IMG/VR virus record: IMGVR_UViG_3300035670_001080
Span: 1-26,819 of that record
Source of the DNA: a virus
Strand: one strand, 5' to 3'
DNA: 26,819 bases
A program made the translations under genes and the position numbers. Shown here one piece after another: positions 18,973 through 26,819 of this stretch (positions are counted from its first letter, which is position 1; each line of letters starts with the position of its first letter). Below the pieces are notes generated by a model. It made no database searches and had not been told where the DNA came from. It worked only from the letters and a program-made list of their open reading frames with translations.

Positions 18973-18987
18973 CAAGAGGTTTGGCCC

Positions 18988-19188
18988 ATGCCCAAGTGCG
19001 GCCTCCCGTCGGAGGTGTATTCGCGTGTGTGCGGCTATTGCCGGCCGGTGCAATTTTGGAACGCGGGCAAGCAAGCGGAGTTTGATGGACGCAAGACGTA
19101 CAGCTTGGATAAGGTGCTTGGCGTCCGCGTGGCGGAAGATGCTGGCGGCGTGGCGCTCGCTGACACCAGAGCAGAGGCGGCAGATTGA
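18988..19188 (+). CDS. Free-standing NrdD C-terminal-like domain
   Basis: A 66-residue protein that starts MPKCGLPSEVYSRVCGYCRP and continues VQFWNAGKQAEFDGRKTY. This matches the glycyl-radical end of anaerobic ribonucleotide reductase NrdD: RVCGY, then NxGKQ-E-x-x-x-R. Similar small stand-alone proteins occur in other phages. In full enzymes the Gly carries the radical; here the catalytic barrel is absent, so it cannot act alone. It might replace an oxygen-damaged end of the host enzyme (as YfiD does for PFL). Ribosome site AGAGG at 18975-18979. The last third changes style and overlaps the next small ORF. Confidence 0.65.
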   Translation: MPKCGLPSEVYSRVCGYCRPVQFWNAGKQAEFDGRKTYSLDKVLGVRVAEDAGGVALADTRAEAAD

Positions 19189-19231
19189 GGAGCGGGCGGG
19201 CAAGCTGTCCGCCAGGGTGCTGAAGCGATGA
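19139..19231 (+). CDS. 30-residue overlapping small protein
   Basis: From ATG 19139 the product is MLAAWRSLTPEQRRQIEERA..., a well-formed amphipathic helix. It overlaps the end of the NrdD-like gene in another frame and its TGA overlaps the ATG of the next gene. The natural-looking helix and coupling favour expression, but the ribosome site (GCGGAAG) is poor. Function unknown. Confidence 0.38.
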   Translation: MLAAWRSLTPEQRRQIEERAGKLSARVLKR

Positions 19232-19623
19232 CACCGCAACCGGAACCGCGCCGGACAAGGCCGAACTCCTGGTCGATCAACAGATGGTCGGAGTATCGCC
19301 GCATCGTGCAGAGCCTGGACTTCTTCGGCCTCCCGCCATGGGCTCGGCACGACATCATGGAGGCGGTGCACGATGAGAAGGCATGGGATTGGTACACGGA
19401 TTGCGACGGATGCACCGCCGTCAGCGAACCGGGCTGGCCGAGCAAGTACTTCCCGCCGTGCGTCCGGCACGACTACGACTGGCAGACCGGGCGCGGCGGC
19501 TGGGAGAGCAACGCCAGGTTCCGGCGGCTCAACAAGCTATACCACATGGACGGCTGGCGCGCCAACCTTCGCTGGTTCGGCGTCAGCGTGGCGTGGTATG
19601 GCTGGTACAAGTGGACACGCTAA
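19228..19623 (+). CDS. Phospholipase A2-like HD protein
   Basis: A 131-residue protein with the central motif DGCTAVSEPGWPSKYF, then PPCVRHDYDWQTGRGGW. The Cys-x-x-His-Asp at about 78-82 is the catalytic His-Asp signature of secreted phospholipase A2, with the DGC near 60-62 in the place of the upstream Cys pocket. The C-terminus is Trp/Tyr-rich (RWFGVSVAWYGWYKWTR), suggesting membrane contact. Phage proteins of this kind are known from genomes, role unclear: lysis aid, entry, or phospholipid attack. The Ca-binding loop is not obvious, so activity may be absent or different. It overlaps both neighbours (ATGA at its start, TAATG at its end). Confidence 0.62.
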   Translation: MTPQPEPRRTRPNSWSINRWSEYRRIVQSLDFFGLPPWARHDIMEAVHDEKAWDWYTDCDGCTAVSEPGWPSKYFPPCVRHDYDWQTGRGGWESNARFRRLNKLYHMDGWRANLRWFGVSVAWYGWYKWTR

Positions 19624-20368: not shown

Positions 20369-21219
20369 CGACGAAGCGCAAGAGCATCGGTGACTTCGAG
20401 GTCAAGTACGGCGGCAGCAGGATCGCGGAACTGGAAGCGGCGCTCAAGCAGCAGGCGCAGGCCCGGCACCCGATCAACCTGGAGATCGCCAGCGCCGACA
20501 ATACCCTCGTGTTCGGCGTCATCGGCGACACCCACCTCGGCTCGCGGTTCGAGGCGCTTGACCCGCTGCAAGCCCTGTACGGCGCGTTCAACGCGGCCGG
20601 CGTCAAGGACGTGCTGCACGTCGGCGACGTGATCGACGGCCACAAGGTCTATCACGGCCAGGAGTTCGAGCTGCACGCGCACGGCTGGGCGGCGCAACGG
20701 GACTGGTTCGTCAAGCACGCGCCGAAGATCGACGGCATAACTACCCACTTCGTCACCGGCAACCACGACGCGAGCATGAAGAAAGCCGCAGGCGTTGACG
20801 TGGGGCCGGAGCTGGCCGACCGCCGGCCGGACTGGAACTTTCTCGGCGAGGACTACGCGACGGTGCTGTTCACGACCGGCAACGGCCGCAAGTTCAGGGT
20901 GGGGCTGATGCATCCGAGCGGGGGCGCTGCGTATAGCCTCTCATATAGGCCACAAAAGATTGCGGAGCAGATCGAGGGCGGCGGCAAGCCGAACTTGCTC
21001 TGCATCGGCCACTACCACAAGGCCGAGTTCATGCCGAGCTACCGGAACATCGCCGTGGTTCAGGTCGGCTGCTGCCAGTGGCAGACGCCGTTCATGGTGA
21101 CCAAGGGGCTGGCCGCGCACGTCGGCGGATGGATCATCCGCGTCACCGTTCAGGACGACCGGCGGCTGTCCAACAGCATCAATGCCGAGTTCACGGCGTT
21201 CTACGGCGCGGAGCGGTAG
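20365..21219 (+). CDS. Calcineurin-like metallophosphoesterase
   Basis: 284 residues, with ATG 20365 behind AAAGGAG at 20351-20357. All five family motifs are present: GDTH (54-57), GDVID (87-91), GNHD (132-135), a lone His (183, LMHPSGG) and GHYH (215-218). These bind two metal ions and hydrolyse phosphodiesters, often DNA ends or nucleotides. N-terminal residues 1-40 are helical and charged and may contact the coupled HTH partner. The set of motifs is complete, so an active enzyme is expected. Substrate is not known. Confidence 0.9.
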   Translation: MTTKRKSIGDFEVKYGGSRIAELEAALKQQAQARHPINLEIASADNTLVFGVIGDTHLGSRFEALDPLQALYGAFNAAGVKDVLHVGDVIDGHKVYHGQEFELHAHGWAAQRDWFVKHAPKIDGITTHFVTGNHDASMKKAAGVDVGPELADRRPDWNFLGEDYATVLFTTGNGRKFRVGLMHPSGGAAYSLSYRPQKIAEQIEGGGKPNLLCIGHYHKAEFMPSYRNIAVVQVGCCQWQTPFMVTKGLAAHVGGWIIRVTVQDDRRLSNSINAEFTAFYGAER

Positions 21220-21223
21220 GCCG

Positions 21224-21838
21224 GTGCGCGTCTACATCTGCGGGCCGATGACCAGTAAGCCGGACTGGAACCGCGCCGGGTTCGCGTTTGTGGCCCGCGA
21301 GTTGGCGGCGCAGGGCGAGACGGTCATCAACCCGCACGACCTGCACCCCGAACCGCCGCCGTGGACGCCGGGCGCGGACAAGGCACCCGGGTTTGCCGAC
21401 CTCTGGAAATCATGCCTGCGTGAGGATGTTGGCCAGCTCGTCAGGTGCGACCGAGTGGTTGCCTTGCCGGGCTGGCGCGCATCTCCCGGCGCGAGGGTCG
21501 AGGTGATGGTTGCGCACTTGCTGGGCATCAAGGTTGAGACATGGCCCGACGGCAAGCGCCTCGCCTGCGATGCGGAAACGGCCCGTCTTTGCGTCCGGGC
21601 GGCGCTGGCCATATCCGACATCGTAGGGAGCAATTCGGCGAGCCATGGCGGTCACCTGGAGTGGAGGGCAAGGACGCCGCAGTACCATACCCATAAGGTG
21701 GCAGGCCACGCCGTCACCGCCGCCGCCCAACTGGCCGGCGAAAAGGGCAGGACCGACGGCGAGGGCGCGGCCGACCACATCGAGCGCTGTCTGGTGCGGA
21801 GCGCCATGGCGCTGGCGAGGATTGCAGACATTGGCTGA
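21224..21838 (+). CDS. DUF4406-like protein with extra C-terminal helical domain
   Basis: 204 residues from GTG 21224, which begins VYICGPMTSKPDWNRAGFAF, the DUF4406 (nucleoside 2-deoxyribosyltransferase-like) signature. NPHDLHPEPPPW follows and CDRVVALPGWRASPGARVEV is the second conserved block. The C-terminal part (about residues 140-204) is separate, helical and rich in His/Ala/Glu (GHAVTAAAQLAGEKGR, AADHIERCLVRSAMAL), resembling DUF5664/MazG-neighbour nucleotide hydrolase fragments. This suggests a nucleotide-pool function. In-frame start 21182 overlaps the phosphoesterase gene and is rejected. The domain combination is the uncertain part. Confidence 0.72.
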   Translation: MRVYICGPMTSKPDWNRAGFAFVARELAAQGETVINPHDLHPEPPPWTPGADKAPGFADLWKSCLREDVGQLVRCDRVVALPGWRASPGARVEVMVAHLLGIKVETWPDGKRLACDAETARLCVRAALAISDIVGSNSASHGGHLEWRARTPQYHTHKVAGHAVTAAAQLAGEKGRTDGEGAADHIERCLVRSAMALARIADIG

Positions 21839-22226: not shown

Positions 22227-22976
22227 ATGTGCAAGTGCGCATCATTCATCCTGCTGAAAGACGACGTGAAGTGGCTGCCGCTATCCGACAGCCATGAAGA
22301 CATCATCGACGAGTTCAAGCTGCACGAGGGCGCGGGGCGGGTAAATTTCGTCCGCGTGGAAATCAGCCCCCCCGGCGGCTTCCTCTCGTTGCCCCTTAGC
22401 ACGTGGGAATACCAACTTGACTGGTATGATGCCACGGACGCTGAGAAGCGTTGCCGCGTTGCGCTGAAAGAGTGGGCCGCTTCAAGGCTCACCGGCTGGA
22501 ATGTGCAAGAGGCGTTCAACCCCGTTCACCCGTTGATGCAACCCAAGCCTCTGTCGCGTGAGCGGGCGCTGAAGATGGTTGCTAATTGGGACAGTGTTCG
22601 GGCCAGTGTTCGGGCCAGTGTTTCGGCCAGTGTTTCGGACAGTGTTTCGGCCAGTGTTCGGGCTAGTGTTTGGGCCAGTGTTTGGGCCAGTGTTCGGGCC
22701 AGTGTTTCGGCCAGTGTTTCGGCCAGTGTTTCGGCCAGTGTTTGGGACAGTGTTTGGGCATACGCCGGCAGCCTGTTTGTCCCGCGCATCGCCATCTGGA
22801 AGTACGCCGAAACCCTCGGGCCTAACCCATGGAAGCCATGCGCCGATCTTTGGCGGATGGGGTATGTCGCCTCATTCGATGGCAAGACTCGGCGCTTGCA
22901 CTGCGGGCCGAAAGCCGAGGTCAAGTACGAGTTCACCCAAGAGGAAATTGCGGAGGCAAACCATGTCCGAGCATAA
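22227..22976 (+). CDS. Protein with SVxA tetrapeptide-repeat core
   Basis: 249 residues from ATG 22227 behind GGAGGGG. Residues about 1-120 form an N-terminal domain (CASFILLKDDVKWLPLSDSH, then EYQLDWYDATDAEKRC), residues 122-177 are 14 tandem copies of a 4-residue unit (D/A-S-V-R/S/W), and a Trp/Arg-rich C-terminal domain follows (SLFVPRIAIWKYAETLGPNP). The unit may form a beta-solenoid related to pentapeptide-type folds. Phage proteins with this kind of SVxx repeat are known, without a function. The repeat DNA (22591-22758) has a strict 12-base period. Overlaps the next gene by 14 bases. Confidence 0.78.
   Translation: MCKCASFILLKDDVKWLPLSDSHEDIIDEFKLHEGAGRVNFVRVEISPPGGFLSLPLSTWEYQLDWYDATDAEKRCRVALKEWAASRLTGWNVQEAFNPVHPLMQPKPLSRERALKMVANWDSVRASVRASVSASVSDSVSASVRASVWASVWASVRASVSASVSASVSASVWDSVWAYAGSLFVPRIAIWKYAETLGPNPWKPCADLWRMGYVASFDGKTRRLHCGPKAEVKYEFTQEEIAEANHVRA
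22591..22758 (+). repeat. 14 tandem 12-base coding repeats
   Basis: Units of type CCAGTGTTCGGG, CCAGTGTTTCGG and CCAGTGTTTGGG. The period of 12 keeps the frame. The third codon of each unit is CGG, TCG or TGG (Arg, Ser, Trp) and the first residue alternates Ala/Asp. Confidence 0.9.
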
Positions 22977-23159: not shown

Positions 23160-23669
23160 ATGACCAACAGCAAACTCAAGGTGCTGCTGAAAAGGCATAA
23201 CGCCTGCGCCGACGCAACGAAATGGGTGGGCAGGAAGTCCGCCGCAACCGCATGGAAGACGTGCAAAAACCCACGATGGATGCTGTGGCTGGCGGGTAGG
23301 GTAGGAGTCAAGCGCGAAAAGCTAGTTATGGCCGCGTGTGTCATTGCGCGGACGGCGCTAAAGCATGTCACGGCCGGTGAACTGAGGCCGTTGCAAGCCA
23401 TCGAGACTGCGGAAAAATGGTGCAAGGGTGAGGCCACGTTAGAGCAGGTGCGATCCGCCGCATACGCCGCAGACGCCGCAGACGCCGCATCCGCCGCATA
23501 CGCCGCATACGCCGCATACGCCGCATACGCCGCAGACGCCGCAGACGCCGCAGACGCCGCATACGCCGCATACGCCGCAGACGCCGCATCCGCCGCCGCA
23601 TACGCCGATATCATCCGCAAGCATATAACCCTGGCCGACATGCTGAAAGCAGTGAAAGGCGGGAAGTAA
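23160..23669 (+). CDS. Ala-rich repeat protein of the putative-immunity-protein type
   Basis: 169 residues from ATG 23160. The N-terminal domain (HNACADATKWVGRKSAATAW, then NPRWMLWLAGRVGVKREKL and GELRPLQAIETAEKWCKG) matches a family commonly called putative immunity protein in phages and gut bacteria. It is followed by a low-complexity Ala-Ala-x stretch (about residues 99-149) in which x is Tyr, Asp or Ser, encoded by 9-base tandem repeats. The C-terminus is a short helix (ADIIRKHITLADMLKAVKGG). Name is from family resemblance; no immunity activity is shown. A 2-base gap separates it from the preceding stop. Confidence 0.72.
   Translation: MTNSKLKVLLKRHNACADATKWVGRKSAATAWKTCKNPRWMLWLAGRVGVKREKLVMAACVIARTALKHVTAGELRPLQAIETAEKWCKGEATLEQVRSAAYAADAADAASAAYAAYAAYAAYAADAADAADAAYAAYAADAASAAAYADIIRKHITLADMLKAVKGGK
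23454..23606 (+). repeat. Tandem 9-base coding repeat (GCCGCA + TAC/GAC/TCC)
   Basis: Units GCCGCATAC, GCCGCAGAC and GCCGCATCC repeat in frame, giving Ala-Ala-Tyr/Asp/Ser. One unit has an extra GCC. The three variable codons differ from TAC by one base each. Confidence 0.9.
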
Positions 23670-25246: not shown

Positions 25247-25972
25247 ATGACCGAAACCAAGAAAAGCTCAACCGCCCTCATCAAAGTCGACGATCTCGAC
25301 TCCGCCATCGAACGTGGCATCGCCGCCCAGCAAATCGCCGGCAAAATGGGAAAGGCCATCGCCATCGCTGGTGCCATGCAGGATATCAGAAGCGCCTTCA
25401 CGCCCGAAATCATGAAGCGCCTGATGGCCCTGCAAGGTTCCGCCATCGGGTTCCGCACCGATAAGGATTCGACGGGCGGATACAAAGAGGACGTGCTCCG
25501 CGACTGCGCAATTGAGGCGCTGATGCAAGGCGTTCACCCGGTCGGCAACGAGTTCAATATCATCGCCGGCCGCGCTTACATCACCAAAGAAGGCATGGGG
25601 CGCAAGCTGTCAAGCATCCACGGGCTGTCATACTCCGTGACGCCTGGCATTCCGAAGACGCAAGACGGCGGCGCGGTGGTGCCAATGGAAGTCGAGTGGG
25701 TGTATCCGAGCGGCGCGGCGAAGCAAACCAAGATCCTGCAAATCTGCGTCCGCGTCAACGCTGGCATGGGCGCTGACGCCATCATCGGCAAGGCCACCCG
25801 CAAGGCCCGCGCCTGGCTGTATGCCACGATCACCGGCCAGGAAGTGCCAGAGGGCGAAGTGGACGACGCCAAGCCGGTCAAGGGCGTAGTGGTAGAGGAC
25901 AAGCCGTCGCGGTTCGACAAGCCCGCCGGGCCGGCCGCGTTCGGCAAGCCGCCCGAACTGCTGGGGAAGTGA
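25247..25972 (+). CDS. Phage recombination/annealing protein candidate
   Basis: 241 residues from ATG 25247 behind AAGGGG. Core motifs: EALMQGVHPVGNEFNIIAGR, AYITKEGMGRKLSSIHGLSY and MGADAIIGKATRKARAWLYA. This is a phage family that I associate with RecT/Erf-like ssDNA annealing by context (gene order, acidic C-terminal tail), not by a diagnostic motif. The last about 45 residues (GQEVPEGEVDDAKPVKG...) are low complexity. The 3' end of this gene is repeated at 26611, where only the tail remains. So the tail is a duplication source. Confidence 0.62.
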   Translation: MTETKKSSTALIKVDDLDSAIERGIAAQQIAGKMGKAIAIAGAMQDIRSAFTPEIMKRLMALQGSAIGFRTDKDSTGGYKEDVLRDCAIEALMQGVHPVGNEFNIIAGRAYITKEGMGRKLSSIHGLSYSVTPGIPKTQDGGAVVPMEVEWVYPSGAAKQTKILQICVRVNAGMGADAIIGKATRKARAWLYATITGQEVPEGEVDDAKPVKGVVVEDKPSRFDKPAGPAAFGKPPELLGK

Positions 25973-26043
25973 GAAAACCAATAATCGCGAACAGGAGAAG
26001 AAGGCAATGAAGGCAGACATGAACAGCATCACCGTGAACGGCA
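25835..26043 (+). repeat. Direct repeat copy 1 (209 bases seen)
   Basis: Covers the 3' end of the 25247 gene, the 34-base spacer and the first 37 bases of the 26007 gene. It matches 26611-26819 with three substitutions that I can see. The second copy reaches the window edge, so true length may be greater. Confidence 0.95.
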
Positions 26044-26320
26044 TCGAGTATGTGGCGAAAGGGCAGGGGAAACCCAACGGCAACCGCGCCGTGGTGGTGG
26101 TCGACCGGGGCTGGATTTTCGCCGGGGACGTGACCGAGGCTAATGGCAGAATACGGCTCAGCCGGGCGGTGTGGGTGTTCCGGTGGTCGTCAATCGGGTT
26201 TACGGGTGTCATCGCCAACCCCAAGGATTCCAATGTGGACATCCGCAAGAGTGACGACGTGGACATCCCTTCCGGCGCCGAGGTGTTCCGCGTTCCGGTC
26301 GCAGACGATTGGGGGCTGTG

Positions 26321-26321
<1 letters not shown>
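26007..26321 (+). CDS. Small conserved phage protein (DUF6948-like), 104 aa
   Basis: Starts at ATG 26007 behind GGAGAAGAAGG. Beta-rich: NSITVNGIEYVAKGQGK, then VVVVDRGWIFAGDVTEANGR, SRAVWVFRWSSIGFTGVIAN and VDIPSGAEVFRVPVADDWGL. The arrangement (strand, VFAG-like turn, RRxWxW-like aromatic strand, late EI-x-x-x strand) resembles a phage family often annotated DUF6948; my assignment is by pattern. Its TGA is overlapped by the following ATG. A second copy of its start lies at the window edge. Confidence 0.65.
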
Positions 26322-26598
<277 letters not shown>

Positions 26599-26602
<4 letters not shown>

Positions 26603-26748
26603 TGTACCTTGGCCAGGAAGTGCCAGAGGGCGAAGTGGACGACGCCAAGCCGGTCAAGGGCGTAGTGGTAGAGGTCAAGCCGTCGCGGTTCGACAAGCCA
26701 GCCGGGCCGGCCGCGTTTGGCAAGCCGCCCGAACTGCTGGGGAAGTGA
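26599..26748 (+). pseudogene. Truncated duplicate of the 3' end of the 25247 gene, 49 aa
   Basis: A small open frame starting at ATG 26599 (overlapping the TGA of the hexanucleotide-repeat gene) and reading MMYLGQEVPEGEVDDAKPVK... to a stop at 26746-26748. From Gly-Gln it is the C-terminal tail of the 25247 product with one Asp-to-Val change. The catalytic core is absent. It is either a decayed duplicate or a small protein expressed by coupling. Confidence 0.6.
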
Positions 26749-26819
26749 GAAAACCAATAATCGCGAACAGGAGAAGAAGGCAATGAAGGCAGACATGAAC
26801 AGCATCACCGTGAACGGCA
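26611..26819 (+). repeat. Direct repeat copy 2 (to window edge)
   Basis: Second copy of 25835-26043, 776 bases downstream. It contains the C-terminal tail, the same spacer with ribosome site and the start of a second copy of the 26007 gene, and continues past the window. Confidence 0.95.
26783..26819 (+). CDS. Second copy of the DUF6948-like gene, start only (3' partial)
   Basis: ATG 26783 with the same GGAGAAGAAGG ribosome site as the gene at 26007; the first 37 bases are identical. The rest lies outside the window, so completeness is unknown. Confidence 0.7.
   Translation, partial: MKADMNSITVNG

Follow-up and report, generated by a model that had tools for sequence, protein, structure and literature searches.

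Can the radical-bearing end of a class III ribonucleotide reductase (RNR) serve as a protein of its own, and why would a phage carry it without the rest of the enzyme? RNR makes the DNA precursors of all cells. The class III enzyme, NrdD, is treated as one chain with a C-terminal radical domain in passages of PMC9669993, PMC9531940, and PMC4493059; a passage of PMC4390871 treats the radical domain as part of NrdD, and passages of PMC5645315 leave a separate NrdD part unmentioned. In the open-licence PMC literature, we found no account of a class III RNR divided into barrel and radical subunit, nor of an NrdD radical domain that stands alone. The viral DNA analysed here (the window; 26,819 nt) raises the question with an open reading frame (ORF) of 66 codons at 18988..19188 on the plus strand.

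The window encodes a predicted stand-alone NrdD glycyl-radical domain

The ORF opens with an ATG at 18988, closes with a stop codon ending at 19188, and is preceded by a Shine-Dalgarno-like AAGAGG (18974..18979, plus strand) located 8 nt 5′ of the ATG; a promoter scan close to the gene returned nothing. The encoded protein matches the Pfam NRDD family (PF13597) at 2.6e-10 and 40.1 bits, above the gathering cut-off of 26.2 bits. The match pairs ORF residues 2–38 with model positions 525–562 of 562, the last 38 positions of the model, and no Pfam family other than NRDD matches the ORF at E values up to 1. A DNA-level search of the window with PF13597 returned a match at 18976–19101, covering model positions 520–562 only. 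NCBIfam NrdD models matched the same C-terminal stretch (best 1.1e-8), far under their whole-protein cut-offs, and PHROG phrog_487 matched weakly (0.0027). A preliminary description, made from the letters of the DNA, had proposed a stand-alone C-terminal radical domain of NrdD, with a profile search as its check, and the search bears this out. It had also counted only about 40 residues of the enzyme; the NrdD match is indeed that short, but its motif residues, 8–38, sit in a 66-aa protein. For the C-terminal tail (residues 39–66; 19102..19185, plus strand) no relative was found, the Pfam, PHROG, and NCBIfam matches all ending by residue 40.

The conserved core, SEVYSRVCGYCRPVQFWNAGKQAEFDGRKTY (residues 8–38; 19009..19101, plus strand), comprises the glycyl-radical loop and the following helix. 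When the window sequence is aligned with 43 viral relatives (44 sequences in all), columns G16, Y17, R19, P20, V21, W24, N25, G27, K28, E31, and R35 are invariant. A profile of the 44 sequences, searched against the PDB, gave Thermotoga maritima NrdD (4coi/4u3e) as a weak top match (E 0.016) and aligned Gly16 (codon 19033..19035, plus strand), within R-x-x-G-Y, with Gly621, which passages of PMC4493059 give as the radical site of that enzyme; a PDB search with the window sequence alone returned no NrdD at E values up to 1. Gly16 is the predicted glycyl-radical residue. In a tree of the 31-residue core, the window sequence is nearest (25/31) to the radical domain of a full Bacillota NrdD, a placement that is weak on 31 columns.

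Comparison of the window core with its 12 nearest relatives gave 81, 87, and 264 differences at codon positions 1, 2, and 3, respectively, a bias that marks the frame as protein-coding and constrained. Searched as a DNA pattern, G-Y-x-R-P-V-x-x-W-N-x-G-K is present at a single site in the window and in none of 100 shuffles; the PF13597 score, this shuffle control, and the codon-position bias rule out a chance match. Judged by its sequence, the ORF is a free glycyl-radical domain (GRD), a homologue of the radical loop at the C-terminus of NrdD.

The start of the ORF falls exactly within the NrdD zinc ribbon (MPKCG vs. CPKCG). Three Cys residues are present in the 66-aa protein (Cys4, Cys15, and Cys18); only Cys4 (18997..18999, plus strand) remains as a counterpart of the NrdD zinc ligands, and the four-ligand ribbon expected 5′ of the radical loop is absent. 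The window peptide modelled alone (44-row alignment; mean pLDDT 75.5, pTM 0.38) has helices at 26–33 and 40–44 only and shows no zinc-ribbon fold. The suggestion in the preliminary description that a zinc-ribbon-like fold serves another purpose finds no support, with one ligand of four left and no such fold predicted. The fold of an unrelated small zinc protein, which the description had named as an outcome that would speak against its main reading, is likewise not seen in the model.

The gene follows the structural genes and lies at a GC-skew sign change near 19 kb, in keeping with the late region to which it had been assigned. The next ORF (19228–19623) shows a below-cut-off resemblance to prokaryotic phospholipase A2 (PF09056, E 0.0012) and has a C-V-R-H-D-Y motif. 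The ORF at 21182–21838 resembles DUF4406 and nucleoside 2-deoxyribosyltransferases (phrog_355, 1.4e-30) and is possibly another nucleotide-metabolism gene of the phage. Further downstream, three in-frame arrays with units of 12, 9, and 12/18 nt (22550–22790, 23426–23620, and 26284–26610) yield low-complexity repeat proteins, and a 209-nt direct repeat with 99% identity occupies 25835–26043 and 26611–26819, its second copy standing at the record end.

The radical glycine is essentially invariant in viral GRDs

We scanned viral contigs with the same DNA pattern, which itself requires the Gly, and obtained at least 120 Gly-bearing stretches. The matches listed number 128, of which 107 are in shorter frames and 21 in frames of at least 450 aa; with duplicate loci L006, L007, L008, and L057 removed and L070 counted as full, the listed matches comprise 21 full NrdDs and 103 stand-alone rows, the latter representing 97 different proteins. 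The Gly is kept in 103/103 of the listed stand-alone rows, a count forced by the pattern, which likewise imposes Tyr, Trp, and the other positions at 103/103. Among the same listed rows, residues independent of the pattern are R(−3) in 102/103, E(+15) in 103/103, and R(+19) in 101/102. Cys at −12, the zinc ligand corresponding to Cys4 of the window, is present in 21/21 full viral NrdDs vs. 24/100 stand-alone proteins among the matches listed, and Cys at −1 is present in 18/103 of the listed stand-alone rows.

Viral scans with the Gly codon changed to GHN returned 0 stretches, and scans with HNN returned 2, which are one sequence in two contigs. That sequence is frameshifted: its frame is closed by a stop three codons ahead of the Gly position and lacks the upstream E-V-Y-S-R. 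The radical Gly is thus essentially invariant: at least 120 viral stretches have it, vs. no intact case without it. Loss of the Gly in most homologues, the other outcome that had been named as contrary to a radical domain, is not seen. Three viral contigs have two stand-alone GRD genes each (L060/L114, L043/L079, and L037).

Viral GRD genes are nearly always without partner genes

We searched 51 viral records for partner genes, namely the window and 50 of at least 58 GRD contigs of about 26 kb or more. In 48 of the 51, the GRD is present without an NrdD barrel (PF13597). The three records with a barrel (G075, G086, and G118) have it in split form, ending at 529–534, together with a separate GRD. 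Matches to the activase NrdG (TIGR02491) were obtained in five of the 51 records, all below cut-off, with the three barrel-bearing records among them; 46 of the 48 barrel-less records have no NrdG match. The phage GRD is therefore nearly always alone and, if it works, must use a barrel and NrdG of the host.

The window has no second PF13597 match and no TIGR02491 match within its 26,819 nt. Its terminase (TerL) gene is open at base 3, which marks the window as a fragment, so that the absence of a barrel and NrdG from it carries little weight. Of the two nearest relatives by TerL (41%), 12 kb and 9 kb were examined, and neither stretch contains a GRD; the phage matches of TerL, under 60% identity and with mixed hosts, give no host clue.

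Cellular genomes pair free GRDs with NrdD barrels that lack the radical domain

We scanned cellular contigs, one genome per species, with a pattern excluding Cys at −12 and obtained at least 118 stretches. Among the matches listed, there are 121 motif frames: 69 stand-alone, 44 of at least 360 aa, and 8 C-terminal NrdD pieces. The 69 genomes with stand-alone GRDs were searched with PF13597 in batches (50 plus 19 of 23), and the counts that follow are for the matches listed. All 69 genomes have an NrdD barrel, or part of one at a contig end. The barrel ends before the Gly in 58 of the 69, typically at position 521–541; some of the 58 are cut by contig ends, and G017 and G054, whose PF13597 matches are whole-length only because the search reads through stops, were counted as split. 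A full NrdD including the radical domain is present in 11 of the 69 (G002, G010, G036, G038, G039, G043, G046, G048, G051, G052, and G066). The 58:11 ratio of split to full is not a prevalence, because the scan omitted every copy with Cys at −12.

The arrangement of the genes, counted among the same listed matches, points to an operon. Specifically, at 46/69 loci the gene immediately 5′ of the GRD, on the same strand, encodes a Gly-less barrel, and at 45/69 NrdG lies 3′ of the GRD, on the same strand and within 500 bp. Split barrels end just past the zinc ribbon, which stays on the barrel in the cellular pairs. Barrel and GRD are in different frames in 33 of the 46 pairs, and six GRDs begin with a 4-bp overlap at the stop codon of the barrel gene, indicating that the two are separate genes. 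A frameshift or read-through that would give one NrdD chain is unlikely, since 33/46 pairs are out of frame and some GRDs are on other contigs.

When 37 split barrels are aligned with 42 full ones, the two invariant Cys residues prove to be retained in 37/37 of the split barrels, and 115 of the 143 columns that are 95%-invariant in full NrdD are identical in at least 90% of split barrels. By these measures, the split barrels look catalytically intact, with the radical alone missing.

Two further samples, drawn with less bias, bear on the pairing of barrel and GRD. In the order of G026 (Pseudomonadales-type; 56 genomes including the centre), NrdD is present in 11 genomes: all 8 barrels ending at 528–541 have an adjacent GRD, and none of the 3 full ones has a free GRD. 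In a sample of 41 long-NrdD genomes, comprising 40 of the 44 long-frame loci plus L131 (an NrdD piece), an extra stand-alone GRD is present in one (G206); L132, L145, and L200, already among the 69 stand-alone-GRD genomes, are outside this sample, and L247 was omitted. In G071, G072, and G073 (L155, L195, and L233), NrdD is divided at another point: the break falls within the barrel, at about model position 436, and a 154–170-aa frame on a different contig encodes the C-terminal part.

The three-gene form is present in Cupriavidus necator H16, where pHG1 encodes a barrel of 676 aa that stops past its zinc ribbon, the GRD H16_RS32675 (66 aa), and NrdG. Taken together, the 58/69 split barrels, the 46/69 adjacent GRDs, and the 45/69 NrdG neighbours indicate that class III RNR is widespread, C. 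necator H16 included, in a predicted form consisting of a barrel, a small radical subunit, and an activase. Since NrdD lacks the radical domain in 58/69 genomes, the free GRD would be its normal subunit there.

Some free GRDs outside the operon lie near oxygen-defence or prophage-type genes

In cells, the GRD gene most often stands second in a barrel-GRD-NrdG operon; in some genomes it is a putative spare next to oxygen-defence genes. Among the 11 full-NrdD genomes, the GRD adjoins the full NrdD in four (G002, G010, G043, and G051) and a rubrerythrin gene in three (G038, G039, and G048); no telling GRD neighbour was seen in G036, G052, and G066. In G039 (Pacebacteria; L266:6530-8164), a FUR-family regulator, the free GRD, rubrerythrin, and desulfoferrodoxin stand in a row. 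A GRD beside rubrerythrin in a genome with full NrdD is how a spare part for oxygen damage would be expected to look.

In genomes with split NrdD, cellular GRDs outside the nrdD operon are located near prophage-type genes: baseplate J in Oxalobacter (L251), an integrase and DUF5675 in Elusimicrobium (L258), and a phage tail-fibre domain (mtd) in a spirochaete (L255). The GRD of G046, a full-NrdD genome, is on a contig with small genes that look virus-like by eye. Allochromatium tepidum plasmid pAt1 has a 61-aa stand-alone 'nrdD' (L270:2460-2645) with no reductase or NrdG among its listed neighbours.

A read-through model is compatible with docking of the GRD in the barrel

We modelled, as one read-through chain, a natural pair in which barrel and GRD are in frame and separated by a single stop (L157). 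The radical segment (approximately residues 701–740) has pLDDT 83–89, the linker has pLDDT under 50, and the model superposes on T. maritima NrdD (4u3e, chain 33–647) with Z 35.1 and 2.9 Å over 532 residues. The model shows compatibility and is partly circular, because full NrdDs were included in its alignment.

Discussion

Our analysis makes it probable that the phage GRD is a class III RNR subunit that carries the glycyl radical, acts in trans as a free peptide, and serves NrdD and NrdG of the host. Many bacteria and archaea have this piece as a separate gene next to an enzyme without it, so the phage peptide probably provides the host enzyme with its radical part. In the mechanism we propose, host NrdG would place the radical on Gly16 of the phage peptide in the infected cell, and the peptide would thread into the host NrdD barrel. 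The barrel could be of two kinds: a split barrel, dependent at all times on a subunit of this type, or a full NrdD that has lost its radical segment to cleavage by oxygen. Whether the GRD would act as a subunit of a split enzyme or in repair of a cut one depends on the host. In either case, dNTP synthesis for phage DNA would be raised or restored, and the phage would have to encode only a few dozen residues where the whole enzyme takes 700. Radical formation on the free peptide, docking, and catalytic support are steps that we infer.

Four other explanations of the phage gene were weighed. The first is a decoy or brake: the peptide would compete for the barrel or NrdG and shut down host class III RNR, for example to starve the cell or a rival phage. 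Barrel and NrdG alike could be targets of a free GRD, and the absence of a barrel from 48/51 viral records, with no NrdG match in 46 of these 48, would suit a competitor. A pure competitor, however, has no need of the radical Gly, which is essentially never replaced; moreover, the same module is part of a cellular nrdD-nrdG operon, and the viruses that have a barrel have a split barrel plus GRD. We regard a decoy as unlikely.

The second explanation, which we regard as likewise unlikely, is that the GRD is strictly a repair part, acting only on full-length host NrdD cut at the Gly by oxygen. The preliminary description had made a similar proposal, repair of host NrdD in the manner of YfiD. Part of this proposal has support: 11/69 GRD genomes among the matches listed have full NrdD, and rubrerythrin stands beside the GRD in three of these, in one of them with FUR and desulfoferrodoxin as well. 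The window core is also nearest (25/31) to the GRD of a full Bacillota NrdD, weakly so on 31 columns, and passages of PMC8683613 consider it possible that glycyl radical enzymes other than pyruvate formate-lyase have spare parts too. As a general account, the proposal is too narrow, since in 58/69 GRD genomes among the matches listed NrdD is split and lacks a radical domain to repair, and an extra stand-alone GRD is present in only 1/41 long-NrdD genomes.

A non-radical role, such as that of a small metal-binding or structural protein, is very unlikely. Three Cys residues in 66 aa could be read this way, as could the absence of the partner gene from the window, a fragment. Conservation falls on the radical loop and not on Cys (Gly 103/103 vs. 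Cys at −1 18/103 among the matches listed), the zinc-ribbon ligand set is missing, and the model of the window peptide has no fold of its own. Least probable is a functionless, decaying remnant of a captured nrdD, which the start exactly within the zinc ribbon (MPKCG vs. CPKCG) might suggest, and which we reject because it is contradicted by the third-position-biased differences (81/87/264) and by the recurrence of this short form at about 100 viral loci, with 97 different proteins, among the matches listed.

The reading of the phage GRD as a trans-acting radical subunit has a wider form, to which we give about even chances: class III RNR would be a two-subunit enzyme in many bacterial and archaeal phyla, with the radical on an exchangeable peptide, and viruses of anaerobes would carry just the peptide, swappable as a subunit or as a spare part after oxygen damage. 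If true, the peptide would be a mobile, replaceable protein radical cofactor. A separate radical subunit would give a new reading of oxygen damage, of activation by NrdG, and of 'truncated' nrdD annotations, and would offer phages a very cheap route to a raised anaerobic dNTP supply. It bears on a question raised in passages of PMC8683613, that of spare parts beyond pyruvate formate-lyase. Short viral 'nrdD' matches do not imply a virus-encoded RNR. The three-gene form in C. necator H16 makes the idea directly testable.

Comparison with known systems

YfiD of Escherichia coli and Y06I of phage T4 repair pyruvate formate-lyase that has been cut by oxygen. Like these proteins (GrcA), the window GRD is small and free, has a radical Gly, and would do its work in trans; unlike them, it is derived from NrdD rather than from pyruvate formate-lyase, and its target would be RNR. 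Passages of PMC8683613 name YfiD and Y06I, one of them phage-borne, as the only validated spare parts and treat those of other enzymes as possible.

A C-terminal functional part of RNR with its own gene has a precedent in the split class II RNR NrdJa/NrdJb, described in passages of PMC5704485. The separate part there belongs to another RNR class and is a cysteine-rich zinc domain for re-reduction, not a radical carrier. The phage nrdD genes interrupted by introns or homing genes, described in passages of PMC3653736 and PMC12363816, are a different matter.

Compared with whole NrdD (PF13597; T. maritima type, 4coi/4u3e), the window protein shares the radical loop with its R-x-x-G-Y, W-N-x-G-K, and R motifs; it is a free 66-aa chain without the barrel, the active-site Cys, and a complete zinc ribbon. 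A published viral likeness is 'nrdD' of the ANMV-1 virus (AJP62049.1), a 144-aa protein with the same radical loop at its end, which differs in having a CxxC...CxxC N-terminal part. In the ANMV-1 genome (KP703175.1, L004:5677-6111), PF13597 finds only positions 519–562, and a viral search with the ANMV-1 protein as query confirmed no relative. The gene was published as an oxygen-sensitive ribonucleotide reductase and taken as a whole RNR in passages of PMC4372165; on its sequence, it is a gene for a 144-aa GRD protein.

In cells, the module of the window recurs at the same size in H16_RS32675 of C. necator H16 pHG1, a 66-aa protein encoded next to NrdG and a barrel without the Gly. A 1999 paper in J. 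Bacteriol. reportedly dealt with nrdD and nrdG of this strain. NCBI names the 66-aa gene nrdD, so that the pieces are already visible in databases. H16_RS32675 differs from the window protein in being a member of a cellular operon and in having F in the core where the window has W24.
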